Positions 10,948 to 32,548 of a DNA stretch of 35,745 nt are shown here, one piece after another. Below the pieces are notes generated by a model. That model was given only the letters and a program-made list of their open reading frames with translations. It was not told where the DNA came from and did not search any database. The stretch lies in the IMG/VR virus record IMGVR_UViG_3300047287_000356, positions 1 through 35,745 of that record. One strand, written 5' to 3'. Origin of the DNA: a virus. Every line of letters starts with the position of its first letter. Positions within the stretch are counted from its first letter, which is position 1. Both the position numbers and the translations under genes were made by a program.

Positions 10948-13635
10948 TTACTTGCAAGTAGATGATCTTGGTGGTAGAGCGTCTTGGATTGTAGCTATGG
11001 TGGTGTCTACAGTAGCACAATTAGCCAGTCTTGCTAACTCTGGCGACAGCTCTTCACGAACTGCCGTTGCGATAATAGCTGCTTCAGGGGGAGTGGGAGG
11101 GTCAACATAGTCAACAGAAGCTAAGCGACTACTGATAGTTGTATCGATCCTTGCTAGTTCCGTCGAAAGCTCTGTGCGTATTTCAGACGTTGTTGGTGCA
11201 AGGACGTAATCAGCAGAAGCTAAGCGACTACTGATAGTCGTATCGATCCTTGCTAGTTCCGTCGAAAGCTCTGTGCGTATTTCAGACGTTGTTGGTGCAA
11301 GAACGTAATCAGCAGAAGCTAAGCGACTACTGATAGTCGTATCGATCCTTGCTAACTCGGTAGAAAGCTCTGTGCGTATTTCAGACGTTGTTGGTGCAAG
11401 AACGTAATCAGCAGAAGCTAAGCGACTACTGATAGTCGTATCGATCCTTGCTAACTCGGTAGAAAGCTCTGTGCGTACTTGTAAAGAAATTTCCTCTGCT
11501 GACGGAACAATAGGAGCATTAGTTAACGTCGTAACTGTGTCTACCAGAGTAACCCGAGCTAGTGTACCAGACGGGTCTAGCCTGGAACTAATAGGCGTGT
11601 CAATACGACCTAACTCCGTATTTAACTCTGTTCTAACTTGACTGGCTATTTCAGCCGGGGTTGGTACAATAGGAGCATTTATCAGAGTGTCTACTGTACC
11701 CCCAGTTATTGTTCTTGTGGTATTGGACCATACAAAACTCGGGATATTGGTGATTTGTGTATCAAGGTTGGCTGATGCCAGACCTAAAGCTGACCGTGTC
11801 CCTGCTGCATCTAAGGGTGATATATAAGAAGACGAGGGCAATCTGCTACTAATAGATGCATTTACATTATCTACTAATAACTTACCTAGACTACCTACTG
11901 TTGTAGCTGAAGACGACAAATACGACCAGTTATTACCTGGAATGTTAGATATCTGCGTATCAAGGTTGGCCGACGCCAACCCTAAAGCAGAGCGTACCCC
12001 TGCTGCGTCTAACGGAGCCGTATAAGAACTGCTAGGCAAACGACTACTAATAGTTGTATCTATTCTAGATAACTCAGTAGTTAATTCAGTCCTTACAGCG
12101 CTGGCATTGACTGAGGCCGTAGGGATGTTGGATATTTGCGTATCCAGGTTGGCACTAGCCAGCCCTAGTGCAGATCGGGTCCCAGAAGCATCGAGCGGAG
12201 ATGTATAAGCAGACGATGCCAATCTGCTGCTGATTGTTGCGTTTATGTTGTCAACTAATAGCTTACCAACACTACCAGCAGTGCTCAGCGCAGAAGTTAA
12301 TGCTGACCAGACATTGGTTGGTATATTGCCTAGTTGTGTATCAAGATTTGCTGTTGACAGTCCGACTGCGGTTCTTGTTTCAGCTGCGTCCAAGGGAGCT
12401 GTGTAGGAACTGCTGGCGAGACGGCTGCTGATGGTTGCGTTGATATTATCAACTAAAAGCTTGCCAATGCTGCTAGCAGTTGTAAGAGCACTGGTTAGTG
12501 CATTCCAAACGGCGGTTGGAATGTTTGTGAATTGCGTATCAAGGTTGGCGCTGGCAAGGCCAACAGCAGTTCGAATATTTGCTGCTGTAAGAATTGCAGT
12601 GCCGACTGTGTTATCCGTAGCAACACCTAGAGCTACGGATGAAGGAGAGGGAACGGCAAGGGTTCCTGTAAATTCATTATTGGGACCGTAAATTGTGCCA
12701 CTGCGCGTATTGTTTTGGGTTGGATAACCGCCGGACGGCATGTTGTCTGCGGTGTATAGATTTCTCTTTGTGGTGCCGTTGCTGGCTACCACTTCTATGT
12801 AAGTTGGTGTTTGCGTTGGATTCCAGCGCCAAGATGCAGCGATTACTGGGTTAATATTGCCAGATGCACCAAGCAGAAATGGGCCAGAAAGACGAGTGAT
12901 CTGGCTTGCCGCTCCCACCGCAACAGCAGCGGTAGTGGTCCCGGATTGGCAAGGGCCATTAACTGTAACGGTTGAAGACCCACTTACCTGAAGTCCATAA
13001 GCAGTTCCACCGCCTCCATACACTCCACCCGTAAATGTTACGTTAGCGTTGCTCGCAGAAGACGAAACCCAAAGAGCTGCCTGATTGCCTGATATGCCAT
13101 ATAAATTGCCTGTAATGCTGGCAGCGCAGTTTGAAGCTATTTGCATCCCTCCCTGCGTGCCACCGCCTGCAGAATATATGTCCCCAGTAAAATTAAGAAC
13201 ACCAGTACCTGAAACAACAAAAGGGCAGACAGTAGTACCTGAATTAAGATTTCCAACCCAACTTAATGTACCAGAGGATGAAAATACTACGCAGCTGCCC
13301 TGCCCAGCAGCGTTGACGTTAATACTCGCCGCCACGATAGCTGAAGATCCCGCTGTCAGACCAGAAGTTGTAATGCAACTCGTCGCCGTCCCCCCCTGAA
13401 CCACGCCGTTCGCGTTGGTGCAGGTCAGGTTCGCGCCATTCAGTAGCGAAAATGTGCCGCCCACGGTGATACCGGCGACAGCAGCATTGGATACCGCCTG
13501 CACCGTCCTCGTGTCGCTGATTGTGATCGTGAAGGTGTTGGCGTAGGCAATATCGCCACTACCTGGCACAGCACCGCCGACCCAAGTTGTAGTGAGATTA
13601 AAATTGCCAGATTGTGCTGCTGCGATGTTCGCCAT
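10948..13635 (-). CDS. tail fibre-like protein with internal repeats (895 aa)
   Basis: The N-terminal 300 residues are Gly/Ser/Thr/Val-rich with regular short strands (FTITISDTRTVQAVS, TGNLYGISGNQAALWVS), consistent with a beta-solenoid. From about residue 350 the protein is built of related segments repeating ISSRLASSSYTAPLDAA and ALGLASANLDTQISNIP, then four near-identical 33-residue units STELARIDTTISSRLASADY near the C-terminus. This modular repetitive build is typical of phage tail fibres, which are trimeric and bind the host surface. The base composition of the first 250 bases of the coding strand is more GC-rich than the repeats, perhaps reflecting module exchange. No chaperone or peptidase domain is visible at the C-terminus. 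The receptor is unknown. Confidence 0.75.
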   Translation of the reverse strand: MANIAAAQSGNFNLTTTWVGGAVPGSGDIAYANTFTITISDTRTVQAVSNAAVAGITVGGTFSLLNGANLTCTNANGVVQGGTATSCITTSGLTAGSSAIVAASINVNAAGQGSCVVFSSSGTLSWVGNLNSGTTVCPFVVSGTGVLNFTGDIYSAGGGTQGGMQIASNCAASITGNLYGISGNQAALWVSSSASNANVTFTGGVYGGGGTAYGLQVSGSSTVTVNGPCQSGTTTAAVAVGAASQITRLSGPFLLGASGNINPVIAASWRWNPTQTPTYIEVVASNGTTKRNLYTADNMPSGGYPTQNNTRSGTIYGPNNEFTGTLAVPSPSSVALGVATDNTVGTAILTAANIRTAVGLASANLDTQFTNIPTAVWNALTSALTTASSIGKLLVDNINATISSRLASSSYTAPLDAAETRTAVGLSTANLDTQLGNIPTNVWSALTSALSTAGSVGKLLVDNINATISSRLASSAYTSPLDASGTRSALGLASANLDTQISNIPTASVNASAVRTELTTELSRIDTTISSRLPSSSYTAPLDAAGVRSALGLASANLDTQISNIPGNNWSYLSSSATTVGSLGKLLVDNVNASISSRLPSSSYISPLDAAGTRSALGLASANLDTQITNIPSFVWSNTTRTITGGTVDTLINAPIVPTPAEIASQVRTELNTELGRIDTPISSRLDPSGTLARVTLVDTVTTLTNAPIVPSAEEISLQVRTELSTELARIDTTISSRLASADYVLAPTTSEIRTELSTELARIDTTISSRLASADYVLAPTTSEIRTELSTELARIDTTISSRLASADYVLAPTTSEIRTELSTELARIDTTISSRLASVDYVDPPTPPEAAIIATAVREELSPELARLANCATVDTTIATIQDALPPRSSTCK
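11118..11478 (-). repeat. tandem 99-bp coding repeats in fibre gene
   Basis: Four near-identical units with an exact period of 99 bases start at 11118, 11217, 11316 and 11415. Neighbouring copies differ at only a handful of bases. Because 99 is divisible by three, gain or loss of units by recombination would keep the frame and change fibre length by 33 residues per unit. Confidence 0.9.
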
Positions 13636-20748: not shown

Positions 20749-22653
20749 ATGATGAATCTTGATCAGGTTAGGGTTATTGACCCTATCCTCACGCAACTTG
20801 CACAGGGTTAATTTGGTAGCCGTGCCACGGAGTAATCTGTGGTATAATAAGGGGGTGAATTGCTGGGAAACCTAAGTTCAAACCTTCAGCCATGGAAACC
20901 ATCTACGATCAGTTTATTAAACACTGTTCGAGCATTGAGAGTCAAGAAGTAAAGTCTGGAATTTATATGGAAAAACACCATATAGTACCCAGACACTGCG
21001 GGGAGGTGATGAGAAAACTAACATCTTACTTCTCTCCAGAAAAAATCACATCTTAGCTCACTACTACAGGTGGATTTCTTATAATTCTCCTAAAGATAAA
21101 ATAGCCTATCTTTTTATGGTAGGTGATCCTACAGGGGAAGCAAAGAGAGAGTCGGGTAGATTAGCTCAAAAGACATGGACGCCACAAAAGCGATCTGAAT
21201 GTTCTAAAAAAGCTTATCAAACCATGCTTATAAGGAATTCTGGGATGGTCTTTAGGGGTGAGTCTTGGAAGAAAAATGTCTCTGATGCTGCCAAGCGAAA
21301 TATCGCTGAAAACAGATCAAAGAGAATCTCTCCAGACACTCTAATTCTATATGATTCTGTATTTGAATTCAAATATAAGAACTCAAAGGAAGTCATCAAC
21401 CAGTCCGACTTTTCTGATTTTGTCCAAACCAGTAAGCACTTGTGCTCTGTTTTTGGACTAAACGTCAAGGAAAGTGAGCATAAAAAATTCTTAGTCTTTG
21501 TGAAAGGAAAAAGAAAATCTTTTCATGGCATTGTTTTGAATAAGGTAATCAGCAGCCAAGCCGTAGAGGGCACAGGTTCTACGGAAGGTTCAACGACTAG
21601 ACAGTGAGTCCCAACAATAATCTGTCCAAGAGCGCCCTCCAACCTGCAAAGGTTGAAGATATAGTCTGGACTTATAGGAAACTATAAGAAGTAGAGTTTA
21701 AATGACTTTACGTTAACATACCGTACAAAAATGCTGAAGGTGTAGCTACCTTCTTCGGTCCTGCAGTTAGTATGAATGTTCGCGCTGGTAGAACACTTGT
21801 GTTTGGCAAGGAAGCCTTTGCTGCACAAACTTTCTTACGCGCACCTGGTGCCAACATTCAGAAGATCCAAAACCAATTCGGTACTCGTAGTTTCTCGCTT
21901 CGTCAAGAAGCGATTAGCTGGGCAATCGCCGAAGAGGTCGCTGCCGAAGCCAAAAACGGGGCCGCACAGATCGACCTGCGTCAATACGCAGCTAAGGACG
22001 CTGCTAACCGTCTCATGCAGTCCTGGGAAGTACAAGTCGCTGACAAAGTGACCGACATTGCCCAGTACGAGACCGACAACGTCCTCGACCTGTCCACCTA
22101 CAACGGTGGTGCTGATCAATTTAATAACCCCACCTCGGACATCGAGGTGCTCATGGACGCCGCTAAGGAACAAGTCCGTAGCCAAATTGGTATTTATCCC
22201 AACAAGCTCGTACTTAGTCCTGATGCTTTTAACGCCCTCAAGCGTAACAAGCGTATCCGTGACTTCATGCAGCGGGGTATTCTGGTCGACGAGAAGAGCC
22301 TTGCTCAGATCTTCGGCCTTGATGAGATTCGTGTTGCTCGTCGTCTCAAGCTGGACCAGGAAACTGGTGCTCTGGAGAACATCTACAACAACATCGCGAT
22401 TCTCTTCTACCATCCTAGTGCTTCGACTGATGGTTTCATGCCTGCTCTTGATAGCAACTACGGTAATCCGGCTTATGCCTATACCTACACGCTGTCTGGC
22501 TATCCTATCGCCACTCCTGAGCGCTTCAACGTAGACACCCGTGTCTTCACTGGTGACATCCTTGTTGAACGTAGCTTTGAGCTGGTTGGTATGGGTGAAA
22601 ACGGCAAGTGCGGTTCTGGCTTCGTGTTCCAGAATCCGGTTGGTGAACTTTGA
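20749..22653 (+). CDS. major capsid protein, split by a group I intron
   Basis: Exon 1 (20749-20808) encodes MMNLDQVRVIDPILTQLAQG and then meets an in-frame TAA. Exon 2 (21724-22653) resumes YKNAEGVATFFGPAV and runs to TGA, for 329 residues in total. The join restores LAQG-YKNAEG, the continuity expected in HK97-fold capsid proteins, where an N-terminal VRVIDPILT helix is followed by GYKNAE. Exon 2 holds the family-like segments GRTLVFGKEAF and NKLVLSPDAFNALKRNK. Without splicing only a 20-residue peptide would be made, or an N-truncated protein from ATG 21772, so the intron must be removed for capsid assembly. The gene follows decoration and scaffold genes and is closed by a strong terminator. 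Confidence 0.9.
20840..20848 (+). promoter_or_regulatory. extended -10 promoter candidate inside intron
   Basis: TGGTATAAT (TGn plus a perfect -10 hexamer at 20843-20848) lies 43 bases before the intron endonuclease ATG. The 12-base string CTGTGGTATAAT is identical to that of the tRNA-Val promoter at 31739-31750. No good -35 is seen here, and the bases also belong to the intron fold. Confidence 0.4.
20892..21607 (+). pseudogene. intron-encoded HNH homing endonuclease, frameshifted
   Basis: Frame one starts at ATG 20892 (METIYDQFIKHC) and reaches the HNH start EKHHIVPRHCG, but stops at TAG 21054. The rest of the family pattern continues in another frame: DEKTNILLLSRKNHILAHYY, then a basic C-terminal domain to TGA at 21607. 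Adding one G to the GGGG run at 21000-21003 would join both into a 238-residue protein of the T4 HNH type. So it is a recently broken homing endonuclease, a recoding site, or a sequencing error in a homopolymer. The gene's 3' end overlaps the intron R element. If truly broken, the intron may splice but not home. Confidence 0.8.
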
Positions 22654-29825: not shown

Positions 29826-30326
29826 CTACAAGCCCTGTCTGTAATTGGGATTGGGACTTCCTCCTCTGACAACTTTAGACTGCCTGCTGGAATATTTACC
29901 AGCACATGACCGACTACAAAATGGACCAGCTTTTTTCTTTAATAAGTTCCCCTTTACATCATTCATAGGTTTAGTAGCAGACTTTTTGCACTCTGGGCAG
30001 GTAAAAGTGTACATCTGCTGTGTGTGTCTCAAAGCATGATATTTAGAGGAGTTCTCCGCCCTGGTTAAAACTTGCAGATTTTCTGGGCTGTCATTGATGG
30101 GATCTCCATCTATGTGATCTACAGTTTCTTCTTCAGTTAGTTTTCTGCCTATCTTAATCTCAAGAATTAGACGAGCTGCCTGGCAAGTTTTCCAACGTGC
30201 ACCATCATATACATCATATATTTTCCTATTGTTTTTCTTCCATATGTATGGACCTCTGAGTTTTGCTTTCGGCCCATAAATAGGTAAGAGTTGCTGAAGA
30301 GTAGGGACGGTGGGAGTCGAACCCAC
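29826..30326 (-). CDS. HNH homing endonuclease (tRNA-linked)
   Basis: An HNH endonuclease with AP2-like N-terminal sequence (KNNRKIYDVYDGARWKTC), the HNH block DHIDGDPINDSPENLQVLT and a C-terminal zinc-ribbon-like CPECKKS with CSRSCAG. Such enzymes cut an intronless or gene-free allele to spread their own gene. The nearest in-frame start is a GTG at 30326, inside the tRNA-Leu(UAG) gene. The frame stays open through the tRNA to an ATG at 30422. No start lies between tRNA and the protein-like part, so the start cannot be settled. It separates tRNA-Leu from the gene fragment downstream, which suggests insertion there. Confidence 0.75.
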   Translation of the reverse strand: MGSTPTVPTLQQLLPIYGPKAKLRGPYIWKKNNRKIYDVYDGARWKTCQAARLILEIKIGRKLTEEETVDHIDGDPINDSPENLQVLTRAENSSKYHALRHTQQMYTFTCPECKKSATKPMNDVKGNLLKKKAGPFCSRSCAGKYSSRQSKVVRGGSPNPNYRQGL

Positions 30327-30384
30327 AATGCCAAAGGCACCGGAACCTAAAACCGGCCGATCTACCAGATTCTCGTACGTCCCC
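30302..30384 (-). tRNA. tRNA-Leu(UAG)
   Basis: An 83-base cloverleaf: acceptor GGGGACG/CGTCCCT, D arm CGA/TCG with GGTAGA, anticodon loop UUUAGGU (UAG, decoding CUA), variable arm TGCC-TTT-GGCA, T arm GTGGG/CCCAC with TTCGACT. CCA is not encoded. The stem next to the anticodon loop ends in a U-U mismatch but is otherwise sound. The frame of the HNH gene runs through it. Confidence 0.9.
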
Positions 30385-30427
30385 ATAATCTCCAGTGCGT
30401 CTACGTCTCCTTGGGTGGACATGGGCT

Positions 30428-30436
30428 ATTCTAGCA
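30428..30436 (-). promoter_or_regulatory. extended -10 element before tRNA-Leu(UAG)
   Basis: Minus-strand TGCTAGAAT, identical to that before the other tRNA-Leu, 43 bases upstream of this tRNA. It follows the stop of the 51-residue gene. Confidence 0.45.
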
Positions 30437-30440
30437 CATC

Positions 30441-30596
30441 TTAGGGGCTTAACACTAGGTCCCTGGAGTGAACAAGAGCTGTAGACCCATTATGAAGATT
30501 TCTAACCAGAAAAATTGCGTAATGGCCTGGAAAGTCGATCAGCATGTGGAGGATGACAACCCTAGAACCTCTGTACCAGGCGTGTCTGCCTCTCAC
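30441..30596 (-). CDS. small hypothetical protein (51 aa)
   Basis: Start GTG 30596 overlaps the stop of the membrane protein gene (GTGA). The 51 residues (VRGRHAWYRGSRVVILHMLI to VHSRDLVLSP) are beta-like and basic at the start, resembling a small SH3/KOW-type barrel, but no family is claimed. A homologous 3' fragment lies at 29712-29825, so the gene belongs to a duplicated module ending in tRNA-Leu. Confidence 0.6.
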   Translation of the reverse strand: MRGRHAWYRGSRVVILHMLIDFPGHYAIFLVRNLHNGSTALVHSRDLVLSP

Positions 30597-31024
30597 CTTG
30601 CCTCTTGGGATTGATGTGGTTGTTGTAGTGTAATTCCGAAGAAATTGGTTGTATATCCGGCAACTGCTGCGGCTAGAGCTAACGCTCCCATAGATCCCCA
30701 CATAAATCGTGATAAAGTGTCGATTCTTGAGTTGATCTTATCTGCCTCACGACGGACATCCTCCCGATCCTCAAGGCGTTTCTTCTCGTTAGTCTCAATA
30801 AGTTTGATCATCGCGGCATGGGCCTCTGCTGACCGTTCGATTTTTTCCTCATGCCTGATGAGGATTTTGGAAATATTCTGACTAGACTCAGAAATTTTCT
30901 CCACGGCAAGTTCTAGCTTAGTGAGCATATCTTTTGAAAGCTCCTCATACACCAGGAGCTTTTCCTCCAGAACCGCCATGCGTACCTCGCCTACGCGACT
31001 GTTGCCGAAGAAAGAATTAGGCAT
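30593..31024 (-). CDS. coiled-coil membrane protein (XhlA-like, putative)
   Basis: Started at ATG 31024 the 143 residues form a coiled coil at about 15-105 (EEKLLVYEELSKDMLTKLEL onward, with heptads and many Glu/Lys), then a single C-terminal transmembrane helix (MWGSMGALALAAAVAGY at about 112-128) and a short polar tail. This order resembles hemolysin XhlA-type holin-associated proteins, whose coiled coil lies on one side of the inner membrane. A lysis role is a guess; no endolysin or classic holin is nearby. The ATG is chosen over an upstream TTG because GTTTAAAG lies 23 bases before it. Confidence 0.6.
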   Translation of the reverse strand: MPNSFFGNSRVGEVRMAVLEEKLLVYEELSKDMLTKLELAVEKISESSQNISKILIRHEEKIERSAEAHAAMIKLIETNEKKRLEDREDVRREADKINSRIDTLSRFMWGSMGALALAAAVAGYTTNFFGITLQQPHQSQEAR

Positions 31025-31044
31025 TACTGACAATAGTTACAATA

Positions 31045-31581
31045 CTACTTTAAACGCACACGTCCTTTTACCCAACCGGGAGGTATGGGTTCAGTCAGAG
31101 GGATAAATCTATTAGTAACTCCGTTGTTAATGACGTATCTACTCATATAGCCTTCTACCCAACCAGGTGGGATAATATCAAACTTTGAGATATATTTTTC
31201 AATAACCCCGTTGTTAATTCTTTTTCTATTCTCCGATAGCAGCAAACCCCGACGAGACTGTTCTTTACTATATTCTAATTCATCCGTGAATCTTTTTCTA
31301 TAAGAGTTGTGCATGTGAAACATTTTGTCCAAATCGGGATATTTTTCCCATTTAGCTTTTCCGCCTTTCTCAGCAGCTTTGCTGACCCAAAACTTTCCTC
31401 TTTCGTAGAGGTGTGGGGGCAAATATTTTAGCTGTCGGCGATGAATGCACGGTCTACCGTAATGCTCGGACTGGTATACGCTCAAGATAGCGTGTGCTCT
31501 GGCACTGATCAGTACGAGGTTGCTCGGATCGTCAGACCCCCCCATGCACCTTGGGACGATGTGATGCAACTCCTTGGTCAT
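31045..31581 (-). CDS. HNH homing endonuclease (behind tRNA-Thr)
   Basis: A 178-residue HNH protein: ELHHIVPRCMGGSDDPSNLV at residues 4-23, then a helical ARAHAILSVYQSEHYG. The C-terminal half holds two copies of a motif with INNGV followed about 13 residues later by IPPGWV, probably DNA-contact modules. The ATG lies one base after the 3' end of tRNA-Thr, so it rides on the tRNA transcript. Its last codons contain the late motif of the next gene. A freestanding homing endonuclease linked to tRNAs is common in T4-like phages. Confidence 0.85.
   Translation of the reverse strand: MTKELHHIVPRCMGGSDDPSNLVLISARAHAILSVYQSEHYGRPCIHRRQLKYLPPHLYERGKFWVSKAAEKGGKAKWEKYPDLDKMFHMHNSYRKRFTDELEYSKEQSRRGLLLSENRKRINNGVIEKYISKFDIIPPGWVEGYMSRYVINNGVTNRFIPLTEPIPPGWVKGRVRLK
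31048..31055 (-). promoter_or_regulatory. late promoter-like motif GTTTAAAG before membrane protein gene
   Basis: Minus-strand GTTTAAAG, within the last codons of the HNH gene, 23 bases before ATG 31024. Confidence 0.6.
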
Positions 31582-31582
31582 A

Positions 31583-31654
31583 AGCCGGATAACAGATTTG
31601 AACTGTTGGCCTGAACTTTACAAAAGTCCTGCTCTACCACTGAGCTAATCCGGC
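31583..31654 (-). tRNA. tRNA-Thr(UGU)
   Basis: Full cloverleaf: acceptor GCCGGAT/ATCCGGC, D arm AGCTC/GAGC, anticodon GGACT-TTTGTAA-AGTTC (UGU, decoding ACA), T arm ACAG/CTGT with TTCAAAT, discriminator T. CCA is not encoded. It lies 3 bases after tRNA-Val in the same transcript. Confidence 0.95.
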
Positions 31655-31657
31655 AAA

Positions 31658-31729
31658 TGGGCAGTGGGGGAATCGAACCCACGACATCTTGCTTGTAAAG
31701 CAAGCGCTCTACCGCTGAGCTAACCGCCC
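31658..31729 (-). tRNA. tRNA-Val(UAC)
   Basis: Full cloverleaf: acceptor GGGCGGT/ACTGCCC, anticodon CTTGC-TTTACAA-GCAAG (UAC, decoding GUA), T arm GTGGG/CCCAC with TTCGATT, discriminator A. CCA is not encoded. It is the first gene after a strong promoter. Confidence 0.96.
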
Positions 31730-31738
31730 ATCTGTGTA

Positions 31739-31767
31739 ATTATACCACAGACTAAATGGTTTGGCAA
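31739..31767 (-). promoter_or_regulatory. sigma70-type promoter for tRNA-Val/tRNA-Thr
   Basis: Minus strand TTGCCA (31767-31762), 17-base spacer, TATAAT (31744-31739) with upstream TGG. The -10 ends 9 bases before the tRNA-Val 5' end, so transcription should begin almost at the mature end. Confidence 0.85.
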
Positions 31768-31799
31768 AAAAAGACCCTGAGAACTTTTGATCCCCAGGG
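31766..31799 (-). terminator. Rho-independent terminator after structured RNA region
   Basis: Minus strand CCCTGGGGAT / GTTCTCAGGG forms a 10-pair stem with G-U pairs around an AAAA loop, followed by TCTTTTTTT. Its T tract runs straight into the -35 of the tRNA-Val promoter. Confidence 0.8.
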
Positions 31800-31825
31800 C
31801 CTGTTTTTTGAACAACACTCTTGAC

Positions 31826-32156
31826 CCGCATTATGCGAAACTAACAACACAAGACCTGATGGGTCTAAATCTAAGACCCAGAGCAGTGACGAATGCAGGG
31901 CGGTTTGCCCTGTGAGACTGCTGCACTAAGTTAGTGCGCAGTAATATGAGTGGCCTATACCTCCTCCAAACTTTTGGACCGCATTATGCGGAACTAACAA
32001 CACAAAGCCCGATGGGGTCTTAATAAAGACACAGAGCGGGAGCGGTATTGGGCAGGGGGATTAACCTGCCGAGACTCTTACACATGATTAGTAATGTGTA
32101 GAGCGGAAATCCAGGAGACTTATGCCCCCTCCAAACTCTCGGACCGCATTATGCGG
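31826..32156 (-). ncRNA. tandem structured non-coding RNA region, two units
   Basis: No gene fits here. Three copies of the palindrome CGCATTATGCG (31827, 31980, 32145) bound two related units of about 153 and 165 bases. Each unit has, on the minus strand, GTTTGGAGG shortly after the palindrome, three further hairpins whose stems are kept but whose bases differ, and a conserved TTGTGTTGTTAGTT before the next palindrome. Compensated stems include GCACTAA/TTAGTGC against TACACAT/ATGTGTA, and CAGGGC/GCCCTG against GGCAGG/CCTGCC. The region ends in a terminator. The strand is inferred from that terminator and from flanking genes. I do not recognise a known RNA family. Confidence 0.65.
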
Positions 32157-32174
32157 GACAACCAATGGATTATT

Positions 32175-32381
32175 TTAGTTATTTTTACCCGAGCGGCTTG
32201 GGAGATTAACCTTCCAATCCGGACCGTCAAGGGCTGACCAAGTTTCGTATAGCCGGTTTTGGCTTACGAAAAACACAGCCCCGTCTCTGGCCATCTCAAG
32301 GGAAGCGGTATTGTTGCTTTCCATTATTTCTTTAAACACTTTTTGAGCGTTTTCGGAAACGGGCTCGACAGTGATGATCAC
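32175..32381 (-). CDS. hypothetical alpha/beta protein, start uncertain (68 aa or longer)
   Basis: From GTG 32381 the product has 68 residues: VIITVEPVSENAQKVFKEIM, then SLEMARDGAVFFVSQNR and a polar tail. The frame stays open upstream, in protein-like sequence (HTLGGHQSQSELDWV, NLKLSDVV), to the 3' end of tRNA-Arg. No ATG, GTG or TTG lies in that stretch. It looks like an alpha/beta domain whose first strand lies before the GTG, so it may be truncated at its 5' end or use a rare start. Function unknown. Confidence 0.5.
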   Translation of the reverse strand: MIITVEPVSENAQKVFKEIMESNNTASLEMARDGAVFFVSQNRLYETWSALDGPDWKVNLPSRSGKNN

Positions 32382-32460
32382 AACGTCAGAGAGTTTGAGA
32401 TTACTAACCCAGTCTAGCTCGGACTGGGACTGGTGTCCACCTAGTGTGTGGTTTACAGAA

Positions 32461-32534
32461 CACCCCCTGCAGGACTTGAACCTGCGGCACCTCGATTAGA
32501 AGTCGAGTGCTCTATCCATCTGAGCTAAGGGGGC
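32461..32534 (-). tRNA. tRNA-Arg(UCU)
   Basis: Full cloverleaf: acceptor GCCCCCT/AGGGGGT, D arm AGCTC/GAGC, anticodon CTCGA-CTTCTAA-TCGAG (UCU, decoding AGA), T arm GCAGG/CCTGC with TTCAAGT, discriminator G. CCA is not encoded. It lies 14 bases after the gene at 32549. Confidence 0.95.
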
Positions 32535-32548
32535 AGGAAAGGGGTAAA

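Follow-up and report, generated by a model that had tools for sequence, protein, structure and literature searches.

How does a phage make its major capsid protein from a gene whose reading frame closes after 20 codons? The question is posed by positions 20749-22653 (plus strand) of the window, the 35,745-nucleotide stretch of viral DNA analysed here. The best explanation overall, which we regard as close to certain, is a group I intron at an insertion site designated site B, spliced in frame and spread among related phages by homing.

The interrupted capsid gene and its predicted product

Exon 1 (20749-20808; codons 1-20, MMNLDQVRVIDPILTQLAQG) ends in GGT and is followed by an in-frame TAA, so that unspliced RNA stops at codon 21. 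Exon 2 (21724-22653) begins with TAC at 21724 and reads from YKNAEG to the stop codon, with a match to the PHROG 1005 major head protein at 21772-22650 (E 1.8e-54). Joining 20749-20808 to 21724-22653 yields a capsid protein of 329 aa, which can be aligned gap-free with the major head protein of S-TIM5 (327 aa; 81.9% identity over 326 residues), bearing out the first-pass annotation, which had joined LAQG to YKNAEG in frame. Capsid homology and the gene order sheath-protease-structural protein-capsid, the same as in S-TIM5, both identify the host of the intron as an uncultured S-TIM5-like (Aurunvirus) cyanophage.

In uninterrupted relatives, including the cultured phages S-TIM5, S-TIM61 and S-TIM54, LAQG-YKN is read straight through. 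Codons 1-77 were uninterrupted in 65 loci in a first scan of viral contigs and S-TIM phages, and 52 distinct uninterrupted (empty) haplotypes were found overall. The junction in these homologues sets the limits of the intron at 20809-21723 (915 nt, plus strand), following U20808 and ending in G21723. The previously proposed splice sites are thus exact to the base; the span first assigned to the feature, 20749-22653, is that of the whole capsid gene, within which the intron itself occupies 20809-21723.

Exon 1 is unbroken in homologues and bears the mark of purifying selection on protein: across the 52 distinct empty haplotypes, variation in codons 1-34 is mostly synonymous and the protein is conserved, which argues for a functional N-terminus and hence for a need for splicing. 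Because the 20 amino acids encoded by exon 1 are conserved and an unspliced message would close at codon 21, virion production can fairly be expected to depend on splicing.

Two repeat-rich proteins were observed in passing. The closest relative of the window, L007, whose capsid DNA is 95% identical, carries a 3.1-kb insertion just 3' of the capsid gene (L007:988-4131, relative to window 22715/22716) that encodes a 947-aa protein with many similar repeats (SLTSFPLLDVSNGT...), and the window itself contains an 895-aa frame (10948-13635, minus strand) with a C-terminal half of repeated units (ASSYTAPLDAAGTRSALGLASANLDTQI...).

Guide sequence and ribozyme fold

The internal guide sequence GUA-GCC (20816-20821) is invariant and paired in five same-site introns. 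Its GCC can pair with exon-1 GGU to form P1, with a U.G pair at the splice site (U20808.G20819), and its GUA can pair with exon-2 UAC to form P10. A U at the end of exon 1 opposite a guide G, and a terminal G, are found in the other site-B introns also. P1 and P10 are paired in all five site-B introns, yet nearly invariant, and P1 is a short helix, of 3 bp with the exon and 5 bp when intron bases are counted; a longer P1 formed by GCAC/GUGC was considered, and RNAfold did not choose it. Exon 1 ends in T in each of the five site-B lineages whose 5' junction is present, as against 11 of 52 empty haplotypes, and GCAC stands at -9 to -6 in five of five lineages as against 6 of 52 empties, although the lineages are non-independent and the p-values indicative only. 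These exon base preferences fit guide pairing or co-conversion.

The core elements P (20858-20870), Q (21547-21560), R (21588-21601) and S (21656-21666) contain, respectively, the 5' strand of P4 (20861-20866), the 3' strand of P4 (21549-21554), the 5' strand of P7 (21595-21599) and its 3' strand (21662-21666), all on the plus strand; the 5' strand of P5 is at 20870-20872. The five site-B introns were aligned with the insert removed and scored against a structure of named helices, P7 and P10 among them. Of the cells, 98.4% were standard pairs, a percentage favoured by the structure having been derived from the window sequence and its Rfam alignment; stronger evidence comes from two-sided (compensatory) changes, which occur in 17 of 64 pairs. 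None of 500 shuffles reached the observed values, and sliding the 3' partners leaves at most two two-sided pairs. The changes are located in P2 (20825-20842; two of seven pairs), P3 (20851-20857 with 21633-21639; two pairs), P4, P6a (21561-21584; five of six), a P7.2-type hairpin (21600-21626; three of five), P8 (21640-21655; one pair) and P9 (21671-21688; three of six). A P9.1-type hairpin (21691-21711) has 90% of its cells paired and zero compensatory changes. P1 and P7 are invariant among the five introns and so provide no covariation evidence. By eye, P7 of a partial intron in L007 differs by compensatory change (GGCCA/UGGUC versus GACUA/UAGUC), as does P1 among introns at another site, A (GCGG/CCGU to GCGC/GCGU in L050 and L169). 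Empty-site homologues and compensatory base changes together thus uphold what had been read from the window, namely a group I intron within the major capsid gene, with P1/P10 guide pairing and the core elements in place.

At the gathering cut-off, an Rfam search of the window returned no intron match. A permissive search placed RF00028 at 21472-21688, its 5' half out of position, with a score of 44.1 bits (E 1.2e-9 for a 1.3-kb target); this falls short of the curated cut-off of 50 bits, which is a scoring threshold and no biological feature. Two contigs from different samples, L169 and L170, carry an ORF-less intron of 269 nt at exactly site B, and that of L170 scores 87.8 bits across the full Rfam model. 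Alignment with the ORF-less intron places a split of about 665 nt, holding an HNH reading frame, in loop L5 of the window ribozyme, and this split accounts for the sub-threshold score.

Once transcribed, the intron would fold into a P1-P10 ribozyme in which the guide holds exon-1 GGU in P1 and exon-2 UAC in P10. Guanosine would attack after U20808 and exon 1 would then attack after G21723, joining LAQG in frame to YKNAEG in the 329-aa protein. The splicing chemistry and the cleavage described below are predicted from sequence.

The nuclease gene in loop L5

The HNH homing-endonuclease gene in loop L5 (about 20892-21607, plus strand), absent from the first-pass annotation, overlaps the Q and R elements with its 3' end and carries a net -1 frameshift inside the HNH motif, near 21000-21010, so that it does not form a single open frame. 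Its two halves match PHROG 655 separately (E 1.6e-4 and 2.4e-5), a protein of the L077/L079 type matches the same family with E 5.7e-18, and the Pfam HNH score is 18.3, below the cut-off of 21.4. At the same site the gene is intact in L059, L077 and L079, and one open frame is present in L137 also. A scan for the HNH protein recovered the same site-B introns only, and no other gene. On the simplest reading, the window copy encodes a homing nuclease that has decayed or was mis-sequenced; a sequencing error in this one metagenome contig could account for the frameshift. The intron would have spread among relatives by homing, its L5 nuclease being expected to cut intronless alleles at co-infection. 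Since its HNH gene is frameshifted, the window copy has probably kept its ability to splice and lost that of homing unaided.

The same break has been weighed in two other ways. The nuclease gene might be unbroken in effect and expressed by programmed -1 frameshifting, given that both halves are open and still family-like and that the shift sits in a G-rich run; we consider this unlikely, as the nuclease lies in one frame in same-site relatives, inspection by eye revealed no recognised slippery heptamer in the stretch, and frameshifted HNH genes in phage introns have been noted by others (PMC11878797). The ribozyme might instead have decayed along with the HNH frame, which is broken in the window and unbroken in L059, L077 and L079, leaving a defective genome. 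This is very unlikely: every core pair is formed in the window, P, Q, R and S are intact, and the capsid exons are open. Least credible of all is an insertion that is never spliced, whether mobile element or HNH cassette, which would abolish exon 1 and leave the capsid to start internally at Met 21772, where an ATG does open a 293-aa frame, because the empty site is exact, the exon frames are intact, the ribozyme fold is complete with compensatory changes, and codons 1-34 are protein-conserved in the empty haplotypes while the codons themselves vary. An intron that splices in frame thus remains the preferred reading.

Elsewhere in the window, two more HNH endonuclease-like genes (29829-30422 and 31048-31581, both minus strand) lie next to tRNA genes. 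Four tRNA genes (Leu, Thr, Val and Arg) occupy 30301-32535 on the minus strand. tRNA-Leu overlaps the first HNH-like gene, and tRNA-Thr and tRNA-Val adjoin the second, which matches PHROG 655, the family of the intron nuclease.

Four insertion sites in one capsid gene

Site B is one of four insertion sites that make the first 68 codons of the gene an intron hot spot: A follows codon 8, B follows codon 20, and C and D lie within codons 52 and 68. Nuclease type goes by site, with GIY-YIG at A and C and HNH at B. Introns at site A are present in L022, L050, L052, L055-L058, L061, L166 and others, and most carry a GIY-YIG gene; a GIY-YIG scan recovered the site-A introns and distant homologues, and no phage record matched a complete site-A intron in a blastn search. 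L169 (821-2498) and L170 (176-1853), independent contigs, have introns at A, B and C together; of these three group I introns, all within the first 52 codons, two are ORF-less and one has a GIY-YIG gene. L007:1-143 is the 3' part of a site-D intron, identified by visual inspection and by its 74% match to the intron of the window; an Rfam search of this partial intron gave no match.

Intron presence is patchy, even among alleles with identical exons. Mapped on the capsid tree, it needs 12 changes, near random placement. L052, with an intron at A, and L053, with none, are identical over 600 nt on each side, and L057 and L060 hardly differ outside a stretch that reaches some 30 nt upstream and 60 nt downstream of site A, a footprint that fits co-conversion during homing, albeit at site A and not at the site B of the window.

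Different parts of the introns have different affinities. The 3' segment, running from P8 to the intron end, groups strictly according to site (support 100/100), whereas the Q-to-P3 segment fails to do so: in L077 (site B) it is 94% identical to L058 (site A) and 56% to L170 (site B), and in L059 (B) it is 91% identical to L022 (A). A single site-B clade for this segment is weakly rejected (p-AU 0.041, about 107 columns). Exchange between introns appears the likeliest cause of the mosaic; donors elsewhere are possible, since short stretches of core occur in many phages. It may be, and here our confidence is evenly balanced, that at the 5' end of the gene, a hot spot of at least four sites, related ribozymes with different nucleases swap their catalytic Q-P3 segments and keep their site-specific guides and 3' ends, in which case the core of a ribozyme would evolve independently of its address.

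There is precedent both for introns in capsid genes and for phage genes with three introns. In mycobacteriophage LittleE, the major capsid gene contains a group I intron with splicing proven by RT-PCR and N-terminal sequencing (PMC3706429); like the present one, it is near the 5' end of the gene (about 0.8 kb long), absent from close relatives, preceded by an exon 1 ending in U, terminated by G and endowed with a homing endonuclease. However, LittleE belongs to another phage group with another capsid, and its endonuclease is LAGLIDADG-like and on the opposite strand (PMC3706429), whereas that of the window is HNH, on the same strand and frameshifted. The same source also lists Tuc2009 among capsid-gene introns. 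In cyanophages, a psbA intron in S-PM2 is known through its citation in PMC3706429 and PMC3428280, and Pf-WMP3 has a DNA polymerase intron with I-PfoP3I (PMC3428280). These too are group I introns in cyanophage protein genes, that of Pf-WMP3 also with an HNH nuclease, but in other genes and other phage groups, and no capsid-gene intron was found in the literature on cyanophage introns examined. Three-intron phage genes and exon skipping have been described (PMC11878797), with two to three group I introns per gene, several nuclease types and some frameshifted nuclease genes; here, by contrast, four sites fall within 68 capsid codons in an unrelated phage group. The closest ribozyme match in phage records, a dUTPase intron with an HNH nuclease in crAss-like phages (cr50_1, cr1_1), is 72.9% identical to the L170 intron over 64% of the latter's length, and differs in gene and phage group. 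The literature searched, which covered few subscription papers, yielded no description of an intron in the capsid gene of an S-TIM5-like phage.

Gene callers may shorten capsid marker genes at such loci; here the start expected to be called is Met 21772, 36 residues late. In the triple-intron genes, sites A and B enclose an exon of 36 nt, a multiple of three, whose skipping would, speculatively, give a capsid protein shorter by 12 residues. With four insertion sites, up to three introns per gene, identical exons with and without introns, and both intact and broken nucleases, these loci offer a natural series for intron gain, loss, homing and recombination, in a virus that would rely on a ribozyme for the protein it makes in greatest quantity.
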